From Polyangia bacterium (GTDB lineage: Bacteria > Myxococcota_A > Polyangia > Polyangiales > JAUICN01): a DNA stretch of 32,627 bases. The position numbers and the translations under genes are program-made. Below are positions 18,330 through 26,349 of the stretch, in pieces. The DNA lies in assembly GCA_030427835.1 (NCBI GenBank), contig JAUICN010000019.1, forward strand, positions 1-32,627. Reading direction: 5' to 3'. Each line of letters starts with the position of its first letter. Position 1 is the stretch's first letter. Below the pieces are notes generated by a model. It made no database searches. It saw only the letters and a list, made by a program, of their open reading frames with translations, and was not told the DNA's origin.

Positions 18330-20342
18330 ATGAGTTTGTTGGTTTTGGAAAAGGGGTCGTTGCACTACGGCGACCGGGTGATCTTTGAGGACGCGGATCT
18401 GCACATTGCCGCGGGCGATCGGCTCGGGGTGATCGGGCCCAACGGTTCTGGAAAGAGCTCGCTTTTGCGTGTGTTGTCGGGTCGAGTGGCCCTGGATGCG
18501 GGGCGTATTCGGGCTTCCAAGGGGGTGCGGGTGGCGTTCCTTACCCAGGATCTGGAGGAGGGGGACGACTGCCTGCTGAGTGAGTTTGTGATGTCTGGGG
18601 TACCCGGGCGTGATGACCTGGAGGCCCTGGTTTCCCGGCTTGAGCAGGAGATCGGGGAGGCCAGTGCGGCCGAGGACATTGAGCGCACCATGGAGATCGC
18701 CGAACAGCTTTCGGATGCCCACGAGCAGTTGGCTGCGGTGGAGACAGATTACTCCCCCTACCAGGCGCGAAGTATTCTCAAGGGACTGGGTTACGCGGAG
18801 ACCGATTGGGACCGGCCCATGTCGGAGTTTAGCGGGGGCTGGCGCATGCGTGCCGTGTTGGCGGGGCTTTTGTTCCAGCGGCCCGAGGTGCTGCTGCTGG
18901 ATGAGCCCACCAACCACCTGGACATGCCTTCGGTGGCGTGGCTTTCGGGGTTCATGAAAACGCTTCCCTCGGCGGTGGTGTTGATTTCCCATGACCGGGA
19001 GTTTTTGAACGAGCAGGTGAACCGTGTGGCCTCGTTTGAACCGGAGGGCCTGCGCGATTACCAGGGCAACTACGACAAGTACTTGGTGGCCCGGGCGGAG
19101 GAGGAGGAGATCCTCGTTAACCGCGCGAAGAATGTGGCCCGGGAACGGGAAAAGGCGGAGAAGTTCATTTCGCGATTCCGTGCCCAGGCGAGCAAAGCCA
19201 AGTCCGTGCAGAGCCGTGTGAAGGCCCTGGAGAAAATGGAAAGTGTGGAGGTGTTGCAGAGCAACAAGACCATGAAGATCCAGTTCCCCCCGGTGAAACG
19301 TACCGGGGACGTGGCCATTCACGGTGAGGGCCTCAGCAAGTCCTACGGGGATCTTGAGGTGTTCAAGGACGTGGAGGTGATGGTGCGCCGGGGGCAGCGT
19401 ATTGGTATTATTGGTCCCAACGGCGCGGGTAAGACCACGTTGCTCCGGGTGTTGGCCGATGAGATTTCGGCCAACGCTGGAACGGTGGAGCTTGGGTACC
19501 ACGTGAAGCTCGGGTATTTCGCCCAGCACCACGCCGACAAGCTGGACCCCACGCGAACGGTGTACGATGAGGTGTACGGCCACAGCGAGGACGCGGGCAT
19601 GACCCGGGTGCGAACCATTCTGGGTGCGCTTTTGTTTCAGGGCGATGATGTGGACAAGTCCGTGAGTGTGCTTTCCGGTGGGGAGCGTGCGCGTGTGGCC
19701 CTGGCGAAGCTGCTTGTGGATCCAGGAAACGTGATGTTGCTTGATGAGCCCACCAACCACCTGGATTTGGCTTCCACGGAGGCCCTGGCGGAGGCCCTGA
19801 CCCAGTTTGAGGGAACGCTGTTGTTTGTGAGCCACAACCGTGCGTTTATTCGTACGCTGGCCACACATATTTGGAATGTGGAGGATGGCCGGGTGGAGGT
19901 GTACCCGGGTACCCTGGACGAATACATGACGGCCGCCCGCGCACGGTTGAGTTCGTCGTCGGATTCCACGGGTTCTTCTGGTAGTGCGGGTTCTTCTGGT
20001 GGTGCCGGCCCCTCGGGTAGTGCGGGCCCCTCGGCTAGTGCTGCGGTGGAGGAGTCTTCTGGGGACCGGCGGGAGCGGAAGCGTAGGCAACGCCGCTGGG
20101 AACAGGAGGGGGCCACATTGAAATCCAAGGTGGCCAAGATGGAGCAGCAGGTGGCCGAGCTTGAGAAGGAGCAGGCCGCCCGTTCCAAATCCCTTGAGGA
20201 TCCGGACGTTTACTCCGATGATTCCAGGCGCTACCCCCTGATTGATGCTCTGCAGGTGGGGCAAAAGCAGTTGGAGGAAACGACCGCGCAATGGATGGCC
20301 CTGCAGGAAAAGCTGGAAGCCTGGGAGGCGAGCAAGCCTTGA
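18330..20342 (+). CDS. ABC-F family ATPase (Uup/EttA group)
   Basis: This soluble tandem-ATPase has 670 residues from the ATG at 18330, chosen because AGGAG lies just upstream and MSLLVLEKGSLHYGDRVIF begins the fold; the open frame reaches back to 18249. Walker A motifs are GPNGSGKSS (36-44) and GPNGAGKTT; signatures are SGGWRMR and SGGERAR; both Walker B segments read LLLDEPTNHLD or MLLDEPTNHLD. The linker between them has the charged helix typical of ABC-F. After domain 2 comes a Gly/Ser repeat linker (about 548-571), then a Uup-like coiled-coil C-terminus rich in Lys/Glu. Such proteins act on ribosomes or on DNA recombination intermediates rather than in transport. The first signature's W is unusual but common in the Uup group. 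Confidence 0.94.
   Translation: MSLLVLEKGSLHYGDRVIFEDADLHIAAGDRLGVIGPNGSGKSSLLRVLSGRVALDAGRIRASKGVRVAFLTQDLEEGDDCLLSEFVMSGVPGRDDLEALVSRLEQEIGEASAAEDIERTMEIAEQLSDAHEQLAAVETDYSPYQARSILKGLGYAETDWDRPMSEFSGGWRMRAVLAGLLFQRPEVLLLDEPTNHLDMPSVAWLSGFMKTLPSAVVLISHDREFLNEQVNRVASFEPEGLRDYQGNYDKYLVARAEEEEILVNRAKNVAREREKAEKFISRFRAQASKAKSVQSRVKALEKMESVEVLQSNKTMKIQFPPVKRTGDVAIHGEGLSKSYGDLEVFKDVEVMVRRGQRIGIIGPNGAGKTTLLRVLADEISANAGTVELGYHVKLGYFAQHHADKLDPTRTVYDEVYGHSEDAGMTRVRTILGALLFQGDDVDKSVSVLSGGERARVALAKLLVDPGNVMLLDEPTNHLDLASTEALAEALTQFEGTLLFVSHNRAFIRTLATHIWNVEDGRVEVYPGTLDEYMTAARARLSSSSDSTGSSGSAGSSGGAGPSGSAGPSASAAVEESSGDRRERKRRQRRWEQEGATLKSKVAKMEQQVAELEKEQAARSKSLEDPDVYSDDSRRYPLIDALQVGQKQLEETTAQWMALQEKLEAWEASKP
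19971..20042 (+). repeat. 18-bp tandem repeat in ABC-F linker
   Basis: Four 18-base units (GGTTCTTCTGGTAGTGCG, then variants) encode GSSGSA, GSSGGA, GPSGSA and GPSASA between ATPase domain 2 and the coiled coil. It lengthens a flexible linker in whole six-codon steps. Confidence 0.92.
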
Positions 20343-21325
20343 CGGGGCTCCGGAGAGCCCGCGTTTCCGCCTGGCTGGCGGAGCAGACTCTTCTGGATGC
20401 GGTGGCGGTGTTGGGCCGTGGTTCCATTGCGGTGATGGCCCTCAAGGGTGTGTTGCTGCAACGTTGGATCTACGCGGATGTTTCTGAACGGGTCATGTGC
20501 GACGTGGATGTTCTGGTGCCCCCATCCCGTTTTCATGAGGCCACGGATCGCCTGGTGCGCGCGGGTTACACCCATTTCAAGCATTCGCGAAGTGGGGTGG
20601 AGGTGGCCCTGCGCAGCCCGGGGGGCTTTGTGTTGGACTTGCACCGGCACCTCTTTGAACCGGGGCGCTACCGCCTCACACCGGAATCTGTGTTTGCCCG
20701 GGCGGTGTGGGACACCGAGCTTTTTGATTCGCCGGTCATGCGACCCTGCAACGAGGACATGTTTTGCCACCTGCTTGGGAAGTTTGTGACCGATCGCCGT
20801 GCCCTGGTGGAACCGCGCCAACCTGTTCTGGGTGCGGGTGCTCCCATCGGAAACCAACCCGCGGACTACGCCGAGCACTCGGCCTGGGAGGATGGGCAAC
20901 GGTTGGACGAGCTGTTGCGGTTTGCACTGCATGTGGGTTTGGATGCCGAGGCGACTGCCGCACATGTGGAGGCCTGCGGCATGTCCCGGGCCGCACGCTA
21001 CGTATTGGGTTGGGTGGCCCGTTCCGGCCATGGTGAGAAACTAGAATCTCCGGCAAGGGAATTTTCGGGGGCCCTGGTTCGCTGCCTTTGCAATGATCCT
21101 ATGGGTGAGGTGTTGGTGGATCGATTGCACCGCACAGCTTCGCTAGGCAATCAGTCCCCGGCCTCTGTGGTTCGTGCGCACCTGTTGAACGGCAGTGTGG
21201 CCCAGGGGGCTCGCTCGCTCGGTTTCACGGTGTGGCGCAGGTTGCTTACGACCGGGGACAGGGAGCTTGGGTTCAAGCGTTTTGGGATTGCAGCACCGTC
21301 TCCCAGAGATCCGGAGTCGGCGTGA
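20339..21325 (+). CDS. NTP_transf_5-like nucleotidyltransferase
   Basis: I place the start at TTG 20339, which overlaps the ABC-F TGA (TTGA) and follows GGAGG by about 11 bases, giving 328 residues; an ATG at 20291 would lie inside the ABC-F gene. The protein shows AVMALKGVLLQRWIYAD followed by the metal-binding CDVDVLVPPSRF near residue 60, HLFEPGRYRLTP near 110, then a helical C-terminal half. This matches the uncharacterised nucleotidyltransferase group (PF14907) often found with HPr-kinase-like proteins. Substrate unknown. Its 3' end overlaps the convergent HPr-kinase-like gene by 53 bases. Confidence 0.8.
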   Translation: MTGLRRARVSAWLAEQTLLDAVAVLGRGSIAVMALKGVLLQRWIYADVSERVMCDVDVLVPPSRFHEATDRLVRAGYTHFKHSRSGVEVALRSPGGFVLDLHRHLFEPGRYRLTPESVFARAVWDTELFDSPVMRPCNEDMFCHLLGKFVTDRRALVEPRQPVLGAGAPIGNQPADYAEHSAWEDGQRLDELLRFALHVGLDAEATAAHVEACGMSRAARYVLGWVARSGHGEKLESPAREFSGALVRCLCNDPMGEVLVDRLHRTASLGNQSPASVVRAHLLNGSVAQGARSLGFTVWRRLLTTGDRELGFKRFGIAAPSPRDPESA

Positions 21326-22265
21326 ACTTGAGCTTCCGCGGGCGCAGTTGACTCACGAGCTGGGTGACGTTGTCCATGCATTGATCTGCAATGCTTGGAT
21401 GGTGGTTGACGTAGGGGCAGGCGGCCATGAGTTCGCCGAGGGCGGTGGCGGGTGTCATGGGCAAGCTCTTGCATTGGGGGGCTTGCACAAGGCGGTGCAT
21501 GGTGCGGAGTTGTACCGGGGAAGACCGTGTGGGGAGTTTCCCGAAGTCGCCGGCGAAGGGGAGGGGGAACACGTGGGGGATTCCGTCGATGGGCTGCACG
21601 AGGTTGAGTTCGTCGCTCAGTATTTCGATGCCCATGCTGTCGAGCACCCGGCAGGTGGTGCTTTTTCCTGCGCCAGAATGGCCCCAGAAAAGATGACCTT
21701 CCCCGTTGTGTACGACGGCGGCGCTGTGGAGAATGGCACCGCCGGAAGCCACGGCGCGGAAGGCCACCATGAGGCGTAGGCAGTTTTCAAAGGCACCGAG
21801 AAAGTAGGGAAGTTGATCGGGAGGAATGGCGATGCGCATTTCCCAGTGGGTGAGCTGCAGCCGCGCCGCAAAGTGGTGGCCGGAGAGTCGAAGTTCTTGC
21901 CCAGTGGGCGTGCTGTGTTGGGAGTGGCCCACCACGTAGAGCTGGCCTGCTCCGAGTGGAGGACGAAAGTGGGAGGGATTGGCCGGCTGTACGTGAATCA
22001 CGGGGTAGCGATCGGATTGGGTCTGGGATGTGATCAGGAACCCAAAACGTTTCTCCACCGCATTTCGTTGGGCGTCGGTGAGCCCGGTCCACCGGTAGGT
22101 GTCCTGGTTGATGCGTAGGGAAAGGGCGTGGGAGCCGGATGTGTTGAGTGTGTCCAGGGTGGACCAGAGCGTGTCCGGATCGGTGAGGTAGGTGTGGTGG
22201 GCTGCGGGTTGCTGTGCCGACTTTTTTTGGGCCGACTTTTCTTGTGCTGAGGTTGGGATCGTCAT
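21273..22265 (-). CDS. HPr-kinase-like protein
   Basis: The 330-residue protein has a low-complexity N-terminus (SAQEK repeats), a mixed domain to about residue 150, then a kinase-like domain: ASGGAILHSAAVV (173-185), Walker A GHSGAGKS (195-202), and LSDELNLV (216-223) as the acidic catalytic/metal segment. This is the HprK-related kinase fold without the HPr-specific N-terminal domain, so phosphorylation of HPr is unlikely; relatives occur in lasso-peptide, PqqD and polysaccharide loci. Its ATG overlaps the peptidase-like gene's stop (ATGA), and it faces the NTP_transf_5 gene. Likely an ATP-dependent kinase of a protein or metabolite made or handled by this locus (inference). Confidence 0.82.
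   Translation of the reverse strand: MTIPTSAQEKSAQKKSAQQPAAHHTYLTDPDTLWSTLDTLNTSGSHALSLRINQDTYRWTGLTDAQRNAVEKRFGFLITSQTQSDRYPVIHVQPANPSHFRPPLGAGQLYVVGHSQHSTPTGQELRLSGHHFAARLQLTHWEMRIAIPPDQLPYFLGAFENCLRLMVAFRAVASGGAILHSAAVVHNGEGHLFWGHSGAGKSTTCRVLDSMGIEILSDELNLVQPIDGIPHVFPLPFAGDFGKLPTRSSPVQLRTMHRLVQAPQCKSLPMTPATALGELMAACPYVNHHPSIADQCMDNVTQLVSQLRPRKLKFTPTPDLWETVLQSQNA
22211..22255 (-). repeat. 15-bp tandem repeat encoding SAQxK
   Basis: Three diverged 15-base units at the 5' end of the HPr-kinase-like gene encode SAQEK, SAQKK, SAQQP at residues 6-20. The family does not need this segment, so it is a lineage-specific extension. Confidence 0.85.
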
Positions 22266-22678
22266 GGTTTGAGTTGGGTTTGAACCTTGCGACGAAGTGC
22301 TGCGGTGAGCCAGCGCCCATATTGGTAGAACGCGCGCAATCTGTGATGGTACGGCACCTGGATGGGTTGCGGCCTTGTCCCCACGCGTTCAACCACATGT
22401 CCCACGATGTCCTTCAGGTGTGCAGGTGGGTCGGGGGTGGTGGTGTTGTCTGCCTGGGTGACCACGCCGATGTGGCGCCCCAGGAGGCGAAACCCAAGCA
22501 GTCGGTGGGCACTGGGCGGCCCCTTGCCCCGATCGATGATGAGAATGTCCCCTGGTAGGAGCCTTGTTTTCGGGACGACGCGTACTTTGTCGCCGTCGCG
22601 AAGCGTGGGCTCCATGCAATGGCCGCGAATACCCATCTCAAGCGGCTGCTCTTTTGCCGTGTCTCGTAGGTGCCCCAC
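22262..22678 (-). CDS. S24/S26 peptidase-like protein with Cys at the Ser position
   Basis: The 138-residue protein starts with GTG at 22678, six bases after the upstream lipoprotein's stop. It has the signal-peptidase/LexA-type core: GHCMEPTLRDGDKV (19-32), then LPGDILIID (41-49) and SAHRLLGF (56-63). The family's catalytic serine in GxSMxPT is replaced by cysteine (codon TGC at 22618-22616). The His in AHR sits where SipW/ER-type signal peptidases have theirs; no lysine dyad is obvious. It has no membrane helix, unlike true signal peptidases. The C-terminus is basic (RRKVQTQLKP). It may be a processing peptidase using Cys, or an inactive binding module. Confidence 0.8.
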   Translation of the reverse strand: MGHLRDTAKEQPLEMGIRGHCMEPTLRDGDKVRVVPKTRLLPGDILIIDRGKGPPSAHRLLGFRLLGRHIGVVTQADNTTTPDPPAHLKDIVGHVVERVGTRPQPIQVPYHHRLRAFYQYGRWLTAALRRKVQTQLKP

Positions 22679-22684
22679 AGCGTG

Positions 22685-23644
22685 TCAATCGTCGACCAGG
22701 TAGCGGGCGATGATGCCGTCGATGTCGGGGCCGTTGCTGATGAAGTCCTGGGGGAAGGGGTTGTTGGTGTCCGGGTTGGTGACCACGCCCGCGGAGGTGA
22801 GGCGCAACCAGACAAAACCTTTGGAGCGGATTTCCCGGGCTTCGGGGGAATCTGTGGGAAGCTGCTCCAGGTCGAACCCATCTCCCCCGGCGGCAGCGGG
22901 ATCAAAGGGGTCTACCGGGTGGGTGTCCCTGTTGAGTCGTACGGGCTGGGTGCCGGCGAAGCCTATCCAGTGATTGGGGTTCCTGGAGTAGGAGGTCTCT
23001 GGGGTGTGCGTGTAGTCGTGGGGGAAGGTGACCCAGGTTTGTCCATCCACGGAGAGCTCCACCACCATGGGGTCCATGAAGTGTTGTGGGTTTCCAGCGG
23101 TTCCAAATACCTCGAACCCGTTTTCAAACACCACGAAATCCACGCCGGGCCCGTTGAGTACCCGTTGCGCGCCCCAACGGAATGTAGCGCTTGGGTGCCC
23201 CGAGAGGGTGTTGTCCAGGGAGAGGACGTCGAAGGAGCCCATGGTGGATCCAGCGCCCCGTACTCCGTTGATGGCGTTGTTGTGGTTGCGGGTACCCGTG
23301 CCATTGGGCTTGGTGGTTTGAATGGTGTCTGCGTGGGTGGAGGGCTGCTCGATCATGCAGGTGTGGCTGCAGCCGTCCCCGGTGATGAGGTTGCCGTCGT
23401 CGCATTGCTCGGGTGTGCCGTTGTGTTGGGAATTGTGTTGGGGCGAATGGTCCAGCTTGCCGTTGCCGCAGGGGGGAATGCTTAGGTAGGCGTCGGCTGT
23501 GCTGGAATCGCCGTGAGATCCGTCGGCCGTCATGCCCGCATCGAGGGTCGCGGTGGAGGTGGGCGGGTTGCCCGAGCCCCCGCAGGCGGCACAGGTTGTG
23601 AGCACGAGGCTTGCGAGCAACCGTGGTGGACGTGGGTACTTCAT
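22685..23644 (-). CDS. DUF4215-containing cell-surface lipoprotein
   Basis: The 319-residue protein has a signal with candidate lipobox cysteines at 18 and 21 (TTCAAC). A Ser/Thr/Asp-rich linker is followed by a DUF4215 cysteine-rich repeat: CGNGKLD at 59-65, EQCDDGN at 79-85, and GDGCSHTC at 89-96. The remaining 200 residues match a myxobacterial/leptospiral surface-protein type, with DVLSLDNTLSGHPSATFRWG, VDFVVFENGFEVFG, HWIGFAGTQPV and ISNGPDIDGIIARYLVDD. A 12-base duplication (23421-23444) encodes QHNS-QHNG. It is the first gene of an operon with the peptidase-like and HPr-kinase-like genes, so it is a candidate substrate or product of that module. Confidence 0.87.
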   Translation of the reverse strand: MKYPRPPRLLASLVLTTCAACGGSGNPPTSTATLDAGMTADGSHGDSSTADAYLSIPPCGNGKLDHSPQHNSQHNGTPEQCDDGNLITGDGCSHTCMIEQPSTHADTIQTTKPNGTGTRNHNNAINGVRGAGSTMGSFDVLSLDNTLSGHPSATFRWGAQRVLNGPGVDFVVFENGFEVFGTAGNPQHFMDPMVVELSVDGQTWVTFPHDYTHTPETSYSRNPNHWIGFAGTQPVRLNRDTHPVDPFDPAAAGGDGFDLEQLPTDSPEAREIRSKGFVWLRLTSAGVVTNPDTNNPFPQDFISNGPDIDGIIARYLVDD

Positions 23645-26273: not shown

Positions 26274-26349
26274 TGGAGCCACCTTCCGGATTCGAACCGG
26301 AGACCTTCGCTTTACGAAAGCGGTGCTCTACCAGCTGAGCTAAGGTGGC
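26274..26349 (-). tRNA. tRNA-Thr (anticodon CGU)
   Basis: Read on the minus strand the 76 bases fold as a full cloverleaf: acceptor GCCACCT / AGGTGGC, D arm GCTC/GAGC, anticodon loop TTCGTAA giving anticodon CGU (reads ACG), T arm TCCGG-TTCGAAT-CCGGA, discriminator U and an encoded CCA. The anticodon stem has one weak C-A pair at 27-43. It sits 13 bases after the SDR stop and is unlinked to other RNA genes. A small hairpin (CCGTAT / ATACGG, 26405-26421) lies in its upstream region. Confidence 0.95.

Follow-up and report, generated by a model that had tools for sequence, protein, structure and literature searches.

A putative radical SAM/PqqD peptide-modification cassette, probably split between two contigs of a Polyangia genome

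Contig C5 of a Polyangia bacterium, whose 3.3 Mb genome is 98% complete and assembled in 30 contigs, was analysed over its entire length of 32,627 bases (the window). Three of its genes, encoding an S26-like Cys peptidase, an HprK-like kinase and an NTP_transf_5 nucleotidyltransferase, very probably form one half of a split cassette for a ribosomally synthesized and post-translationally modified peptide (RiPP). The other half, comprising PqqD, a radical S-adenosylmethionine (SAM) enzyme and a small precursor peptide, is encoded on another contig of this genome, C30; the 67-residue C30 precursor is the most likely substrate of the window module. The cassette apparently represents a so far unreported RiPP family with about 60 member genomes in three phyla; a literature search for radical SAM enzymes with HPr kinase, S26 peptidase or gingipain in RiPPs yielded no description of such a system, with most subscription journals outside its coverage.

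Organization and division of the cassette

The window genes under consideration, including an adjacent lipoprotein gene, are:

20291..21325, plus strand, NTP_transf_5 nucleotidyltransferase, 344 amino acids (PF14907)
21273..21325, no strand, 53-base 3'-3' overlap of the HprK-like and NTP_transf_5 genes (from the gene coordinates)
21273..22265, minus strand, HprK-like kinase, 330 amino acids (phosphoenolpyruvate carboxykinase/HprK fold, Walker A)
22262..22678, minus strand, S26-like Cys peptidase, 138 amino acids, GTG start (signal-peptidase fold)
22685..23644, minus strand, LIC_13355-family lipoprotein, 319 amino acids (NF033170)

On rechecking, the gene positions and spacing reported in a first-pass annotation of this DNA were exact, with a gap of 6 bases between the lipoprotein and S26-like genes, an overlap of 4 bases between the S26-like and HprK-like genes, and an overlap of 53 bases where the HprK-like and NTP_transf_5 genes converge. 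The true start of the NTP_transf_5 gene may lie 3' of position 20291, which falls within the preceding ABC-F gene.

When the HprK-like protein was searched against 289 genomes of the class, nine close relatives were identified that align over most of its length; eight belong to family f3 and one to family f2. An independent search with the S26-like protein landed, for most of the nine, on the gene adjoining the one for the HprK-like protein. The relatives within the order share a constant gene arrangement, S26-like > HprK-like > PqqD > radical SAM > precursor < NTP_transf_5, in which a PqqD-like protein of 73-97 residues and a radical SAM enzyme of about 355 residues are followed by a small open reading frame (ORF), and in which the convergent NTP_transf_5 gene at the end is usual, not universal. 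The outer genes of the window are the same in kind and orientation, and the middle three (PqqD, radical SAM enzyme, precursor) are absent. Their place in the relatives corresponds to the site of the 53-base overlap, and the window NTP_transf_5 has a C-terminal tail of ~20 residues that most homologues lack; overlap and tail are probably the scar left by removal of the middle block. The first-pass annotation had proposed a phosphorylation/nucleotidylation-type module and suggested analysing its neighbourhood and searching homologous loci for small precursor ORFs. Peptidase, HprK-like kinase and NTP_transf_5 indeed form a linked module conserved in relatives, and precursors were found.

The missing genes are present in the same genome. 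PqqD (C30:210624-210794; PF05402, 41 bits, cut-off 23.4), the only copy in the genome, adjoins a radical SAM enzyme (C30:209480-210559) that is 50% identical to its counterpart in the G101 cassette (E 5e-109). Just downstream of the latter lies a precursor ORF of 67 residues (L065:8080-8283, minus strand), a clear homologue of the small ORFs of the relatives, which carries an EPLEAVAT-x-C motif and ends in ...AYVAPAILTIEPLEAVATTCTDPGAKGYGEPACATGPIQS. The three genes thus retain the ancestral order at this second site. The module is therefore not "stripped-down", as had been supposed, and the earlier observation that no PqqD is encoded holds for the window and fails for the genome.

Since HprK-like protein, NTP_transf_5, PqqD and precursor were each found once in the genome, the two halves are most simply regarded as partners. 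In their respective trees, the HprK-like protein and the radical SAM enzyme both fall within the clade of Myxococcota (support 93/80 and 96/98, respectively), as expected if a single ancestral cassette had been divided. Both halves lie inside their contigs, at 20-24 kb of 32.6 kb in the window and at 209-211 kb of 262 kb on C30.

Two other explanations of this division were considered. Independence of the halves, with the HprK/S26/NTP half now serving another substrate, would fit their location on different contigs and the flexible gene order in relatives, yet wherever both were searched for in the order they co-occur, and the precursor of this genome retains both features on which two of the window enzymes would be expected to act, a C-terminal Ser and an [ATVLSI]-x-A step; we regard this as improbable. 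Alternatively, the window genes may be decaying, functionless remains of a cassette that fell apart in a genome as small as 3.3 Mb. An arrangement that departs from all relatives, the 53-base overlap, the extended NTP_transf_5 tail and the position of the genome's HprK-like protein on the longest branch of the HprK tree are compatible with such a relic. However, the reading frames of every enzyme and of the precursor are intact in both halves, with the catalytic residues kept, and one would not expect each component of a broken cassette to survive at exactly one copy, so that decay also appears improbable.

The lipoprotein gene has a tight, operon-like spacing to the module, and the first-pass annotation had considered its product (NF033170, LIC_13355 family; 155 bits, cut-off 120) as the modified or processed target. 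This would make the system one of envelope or lipoprotein modification, which we consider very improbable. The gene is absent from all homologous cassette loci mapped, the strong homologues (46-51% identity, full-length) are all found in genomes of family f5, which lack an orthologue of the cassette radical SAM enzyme, and a dedicated precursor is encoded elsewhere in the genome. The lipoprotein is accordingly judged from its distribution to be a bystander despite the operon-like layout, and it probably became a neighbour during rearrangement of the cassette.

Several further features of the two contigs were observed. Upstream of PqqD on C30, a sequence of 58 bases occurs twice in direct orientation (L065:10105-10225); the copies are 90% alike, are separated by 63 bases and each contain the palindrome-like CCAGGGCCAGGCCCTGG, and they are possibly an operator of the PqqD-radical SAM-precursor half. 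An ORF with a HELAH zinc-peptidase-like motif (L065:7176-8093, plus strand) faces the C30 precursor and was not seen in other cassettes. In the window, a tRNA-Thr (CGT) at 26274-26349 (minus strand) accounts for overlapping small ORFs at that position.

Distribution, precursors and enzymes

A single scan of GTDB species genomes with an alignment of the radical SAM enzyme returned 78 loci, ~60 of which carry the cassette according to a profile map. They belong to the Acidobacteriota (mainly Thermoanaerobaculia and Holophagae), Myxococcota and Gammaproteobacteria, the latter including Sedimenticola, Competibacter and Thiocapsa marina. Gene order varies among the loci, with the S26-like or HprK-like genes at times inverted or missing from the stretch covered. 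Within the order, the radical SAM orthologue is present in 12/183 genomes, and all ten of those also covered by the HprK search encode the HprK-like orthologue. A single-protein pattern search of contigs with the S26-like protein gave no matches; such patterns were too strict and therefore missed the relatives, which were recovered by the whole-genome and radical SAM-alignment searches.

Other combinations of HprK-like and radical SAM genes were encountered. Four loci of family f23 (L051, L052, L053, L055) contain a second, distinct HprK-like and radical SAM set, with short precursors (FETLALSCA[KR]AN..C.G.NPDRS in L052, L053 and L055) that have a C-terminal Ser as well. In many other genomes of the order, a distant HprK-like gene and a distant radical SAM gene are no more than ~2 kb apart (G198 C34, G217 C101, G138 C122, G188 C215, G172 C584, G269 C584, G088 C44 and G132 C20), which suggests that HprK-radical SAM pairs are a wider theme.

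The cassette precursors, gathered with a profile as 61 non-identical sequences, share a distinctive architecture. A C-terminal Ser is found in 61/61 of them, a count that includes close relatives and overstates the number of independent cases, versus 21/340 (6%) of the genes called in the initial set of loci; the small ORFs L056, L058 and L059, which were gene-called ahead of any profile, also end in Ser. In all but one (60/61), [LIMFP]-E-x-x-A stands ahead of the first Cys and is followed by exactly two Cys. The motif Ala is preceded, two positions earlier, by A, T, V, L, S or I, giving an [ATVLSI]-x-A step. Y-x-x-P occurs in 51 precursors and W-x-x-P in 11. Between the two Cys, 60/61 contain Lys (exactly one in 59) and the remaining precursor has Arg instead; Ala, Gly or Ser directly precedes the loop Lys in 59/60. 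The two Cys and the Lys are obvious candidate sites of modification by the radical SAM enzyme. This enzyme scores above the cut-offs of PF04055 (80 bits) and PF13186 (SPASM, 31 bits) and falls under every NCBIfam cut-off listed, and its CxxxCxxC motif is invariant (Cys27/31/34).

By sequence, the HprK-like protein is below family cut-offs, with ScmC as best NCBIfam match. Its predicted structure (predicted local distance difference test, pLDDT, 87.7) resembles phosphoenolpyruvate carboxykinase (VIA Z 16.3) and HPr kinase folds, and it keeps the GHSGAGKS Walker A and SD[ED]-x-N (SDE.N in the window protein) motifs, mostly invariant in 38 sequences, making it a candidate kinase of the C-terminal Ser. 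NTP_transf_5 (PF14907, 74.2 bits, cut-off 31.2) has Lys52, Arg67, Asp71 and Asp73 invariant in eight cassette homologues, the two Asp forming a DxD motif, and probably comes last among the tailoring enzymes, with the phosphorylated C-terminal Ser as its presumed target.

The S26-like protein also lies below family cut-offs by sequence (best match archaeal-type signal peptidase, 26 bits), and PDB sequence searches with this and the HprK-like protein gave chance or P-loop matches only. Its structural model (pLDDT 93.8) adopts a signal-peptidase fold, with 7p2q as the best Foldseek match and a VIA Z of 11.1 to E. coli signal peptidase I (3s04; root-mean-square deviation 3.1 over 98 residues), and also resembles LexA-type domains and human SEC11 paralogues. 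The Ser nucleophile expected of peptidase family S26 is replaced by Cys21 in the window protein; the position is Cys in 29/36 homologues and Ser in 7/36, and His58 and Asp77 are invariant (36/36). The Cys-type S26-like assignment of the first-pass annotation is thus confirmed by a conserved Cys at the catalytic position and backed by the predicted fold. The tree of Cys and Ser proteins is too poorly resolved to count switches between them. No N-terminal membrane anchor is evident in the sequence or in the short N-terminal helix of the model, as inspected without a dedicated predictor.

The [ATVLSI]-x-A step ahead of the first Cys looks like a site for signal peptidase, which makes the S26-like protein the natural candidate for removing the leader, a role to which we give even chances. 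The S26-like protein might instead be a chaperone without catalytic activity, or a LexA/S24-type regulator that cleaves itself, given the LexA C-domains among the fold matches, the Cys nucleophile and the loss of the Pro following the Cys-Met pair in some homologues. This seems unlikely, as Cys/Ser, His and Asp are retained in all 36 homologues, pointing to catalysis, the protein has no DNA-binding domain, and the precursors carry the signal-peptidase-like step.

C25 peptidases and a proposed pathway

A large protein with a C25 (gingipain-family) domain (PF01364, E down to 5e-71) is encoded in the flanks of 33/62 named cassette loci. In 28/43 non-Myxococcota cases, the precursor gene is directly downstream of a secreted C25 gene on the same strand, mostly at less than 140 bases, and three loci (L106, L118, L131) contain two C25-precursor pairs each with a single set of maturation enzymes. 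Within the order, C25 peptidases are found in 11/12 cassette-bearing genomes versus 30/171 others (Fisher p 2e-7). The genome studied here encodes two (loci L194 and L195), both with RTX-like repeats:

C2:6238-7278, minus strand, C25 peptidase
C7:102265-103326, plus strand, C25 peptidase

Both have Cys-transmembrane-Arg tails resembling MYXO-CTERM sorting signals, and a search for precursors beside these two genes found none. Overall, we lean slightly towards a functional tie between cassette and C25 peptidase. Gingipain-family enzymes cleave after Arg or Lys, so that a Cys-bounded loop with one Lys may serve as an inhibitor or substrate of the C25 enzyme.

The cassette, its architecture and split, the precursor motifs, the folds and the retained catalytic residues can be read from sequence; the mechanism is our inference. 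PqqD would bind the Y-x-x-P leader and present the precursor to the radical SAM enzyme, which would modify the two-Cys core. The HprK-like kinase would then phosphorylate the invariant C-terminal Ser, which by analogy with lasso peptide clusters is rather likely, and NTP_transf_5 could attach a group to the Ser phosphate, a step that may equally well not occur. The S26-like Cys-His-Asp peptidase would cut off the leader at the [ATVLSI]-x-A step ahead of the first Cys. The mature peptide, a loop bounded by Cys and carrying one Lys, would be exported and act with a secreted C25 peptidase. As a more speculative proposal, the family may constitute a new RiPP class in which a signal-peptidase-fold leader protease has Cys in place of Ser, kinase and nucleotidyltransferase cap the C-terminal Ser, and the Cys-clamped one-Lys loop specifically inhibits or regulates a secreted protease of the gingipain family, whose gene adjoins that of the precursor in many of the genomes.

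Several observations weigh against a split cassette acting as one C25-linked pathway. The split is known from one assembly of the one genome of its family, and a double misassembly is possible, even though neither half is near a contig end. Several loci have no S26-like gene within the stretch examined, seven of the 36 S26-like homologues use Ser, and NTP_transf_5 adjoins the cassette mainly in Myxococcota. In most Myxococcota, this genome included, C25 and cassette genes are not neighbours, and the relatedness within the precursor set reduces the weight of its invariant features.

If the split cassette is indeed a single pathway, RiPP pathways can be spread over separate loci, and cluster-based genome mining would overlook such cases. 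The family would also tie a RiPP to secreted C25 proteases and provide a leader peptidase in the form of a naturally occurring Cys variant of the signal-peptidase fold. Precursors, enzymes and their likely order of action are laid out well enough for testing in E. coli.

Comparison with known systems

An anti-phage defence role was considered and rejected, as the window proteins have no PADLOC match and the matches of the radical SAM enzyme to viperin models are at the superfamily level. The S26-like protein resembles signal peptidase I of the archaeal/ER (SipW, SEC11) type in its fold, its Ser/Cys-His-Asp arrangement and its likely [ATVLSI]-x-A substrate step, but is small, lacks an obvious N-terminal membrane anchor, is linked to a RiPP cassette and has a Cys nucleophile in 29/36 homologues.

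Among peptide-modification systems, the SynChlorMet cassette also combines an HprK-like protein with radical SAM/SPASM enzymes, ScmC being the best NCBIfam match noted above. The cassette described here differs in having one radical SAM enzyme instead of two and an additional S26-like peptidase, and its scores are far under the cut-offs (ScmC 36 vs. 125, ScmE 87 vs. 400 and ScmF 63 vs. 400 bits). The HprK-related kinases A and B, annotated in peptide-modification systems, are distant relatives of the HprK-like protein, and membership was likewise rejected (TIGR04352, 34.6 vs. 200 bits; TIGR04355, 21 vs. 200 bits). PqqD/PqqE- and mycofactocin-type systems share the PqqD recognition domain, a SPASM radical SAM enzyme and a small precursor; the extra kinase, nucleotidyltransferase and Cys S26-like peptidase, the other precursor and the C25 partner set the present cassette apart.

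The paeninodin and pseudomycoidin lasso peptide clusters also have an HprK-like kinase and a nucleotidyltransferase beside a Ser-ending precursor, together with a PqqD-like recognition protein. Lasso leaders carry a Y-x-x-P element, and HPr-kinase homologues in lasso clusters phosphorylate the C-terminal Ser of the precursor. The cassette is not itself a lasso peptide cluster, as the transglutaminase-like leader peptidase PF13471 is absent from the genome; an asparagine-synthetase-like cyclase was not seen beside the cassettes, and no genome-wide search was made for it. It further differs from lasso clusters by its radical SAM enzyme, S26-fold peptidase and precursor cores. Lasso-type Ser chemistry is the leading reading because of the strict C-terminal Ser, the HprK-like kinase and, in Myxococcota, NTP_transf_5. 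The cassette would hence unite radical SAM modification with C-terminal Ser phosphorylation, which we found described only separately.

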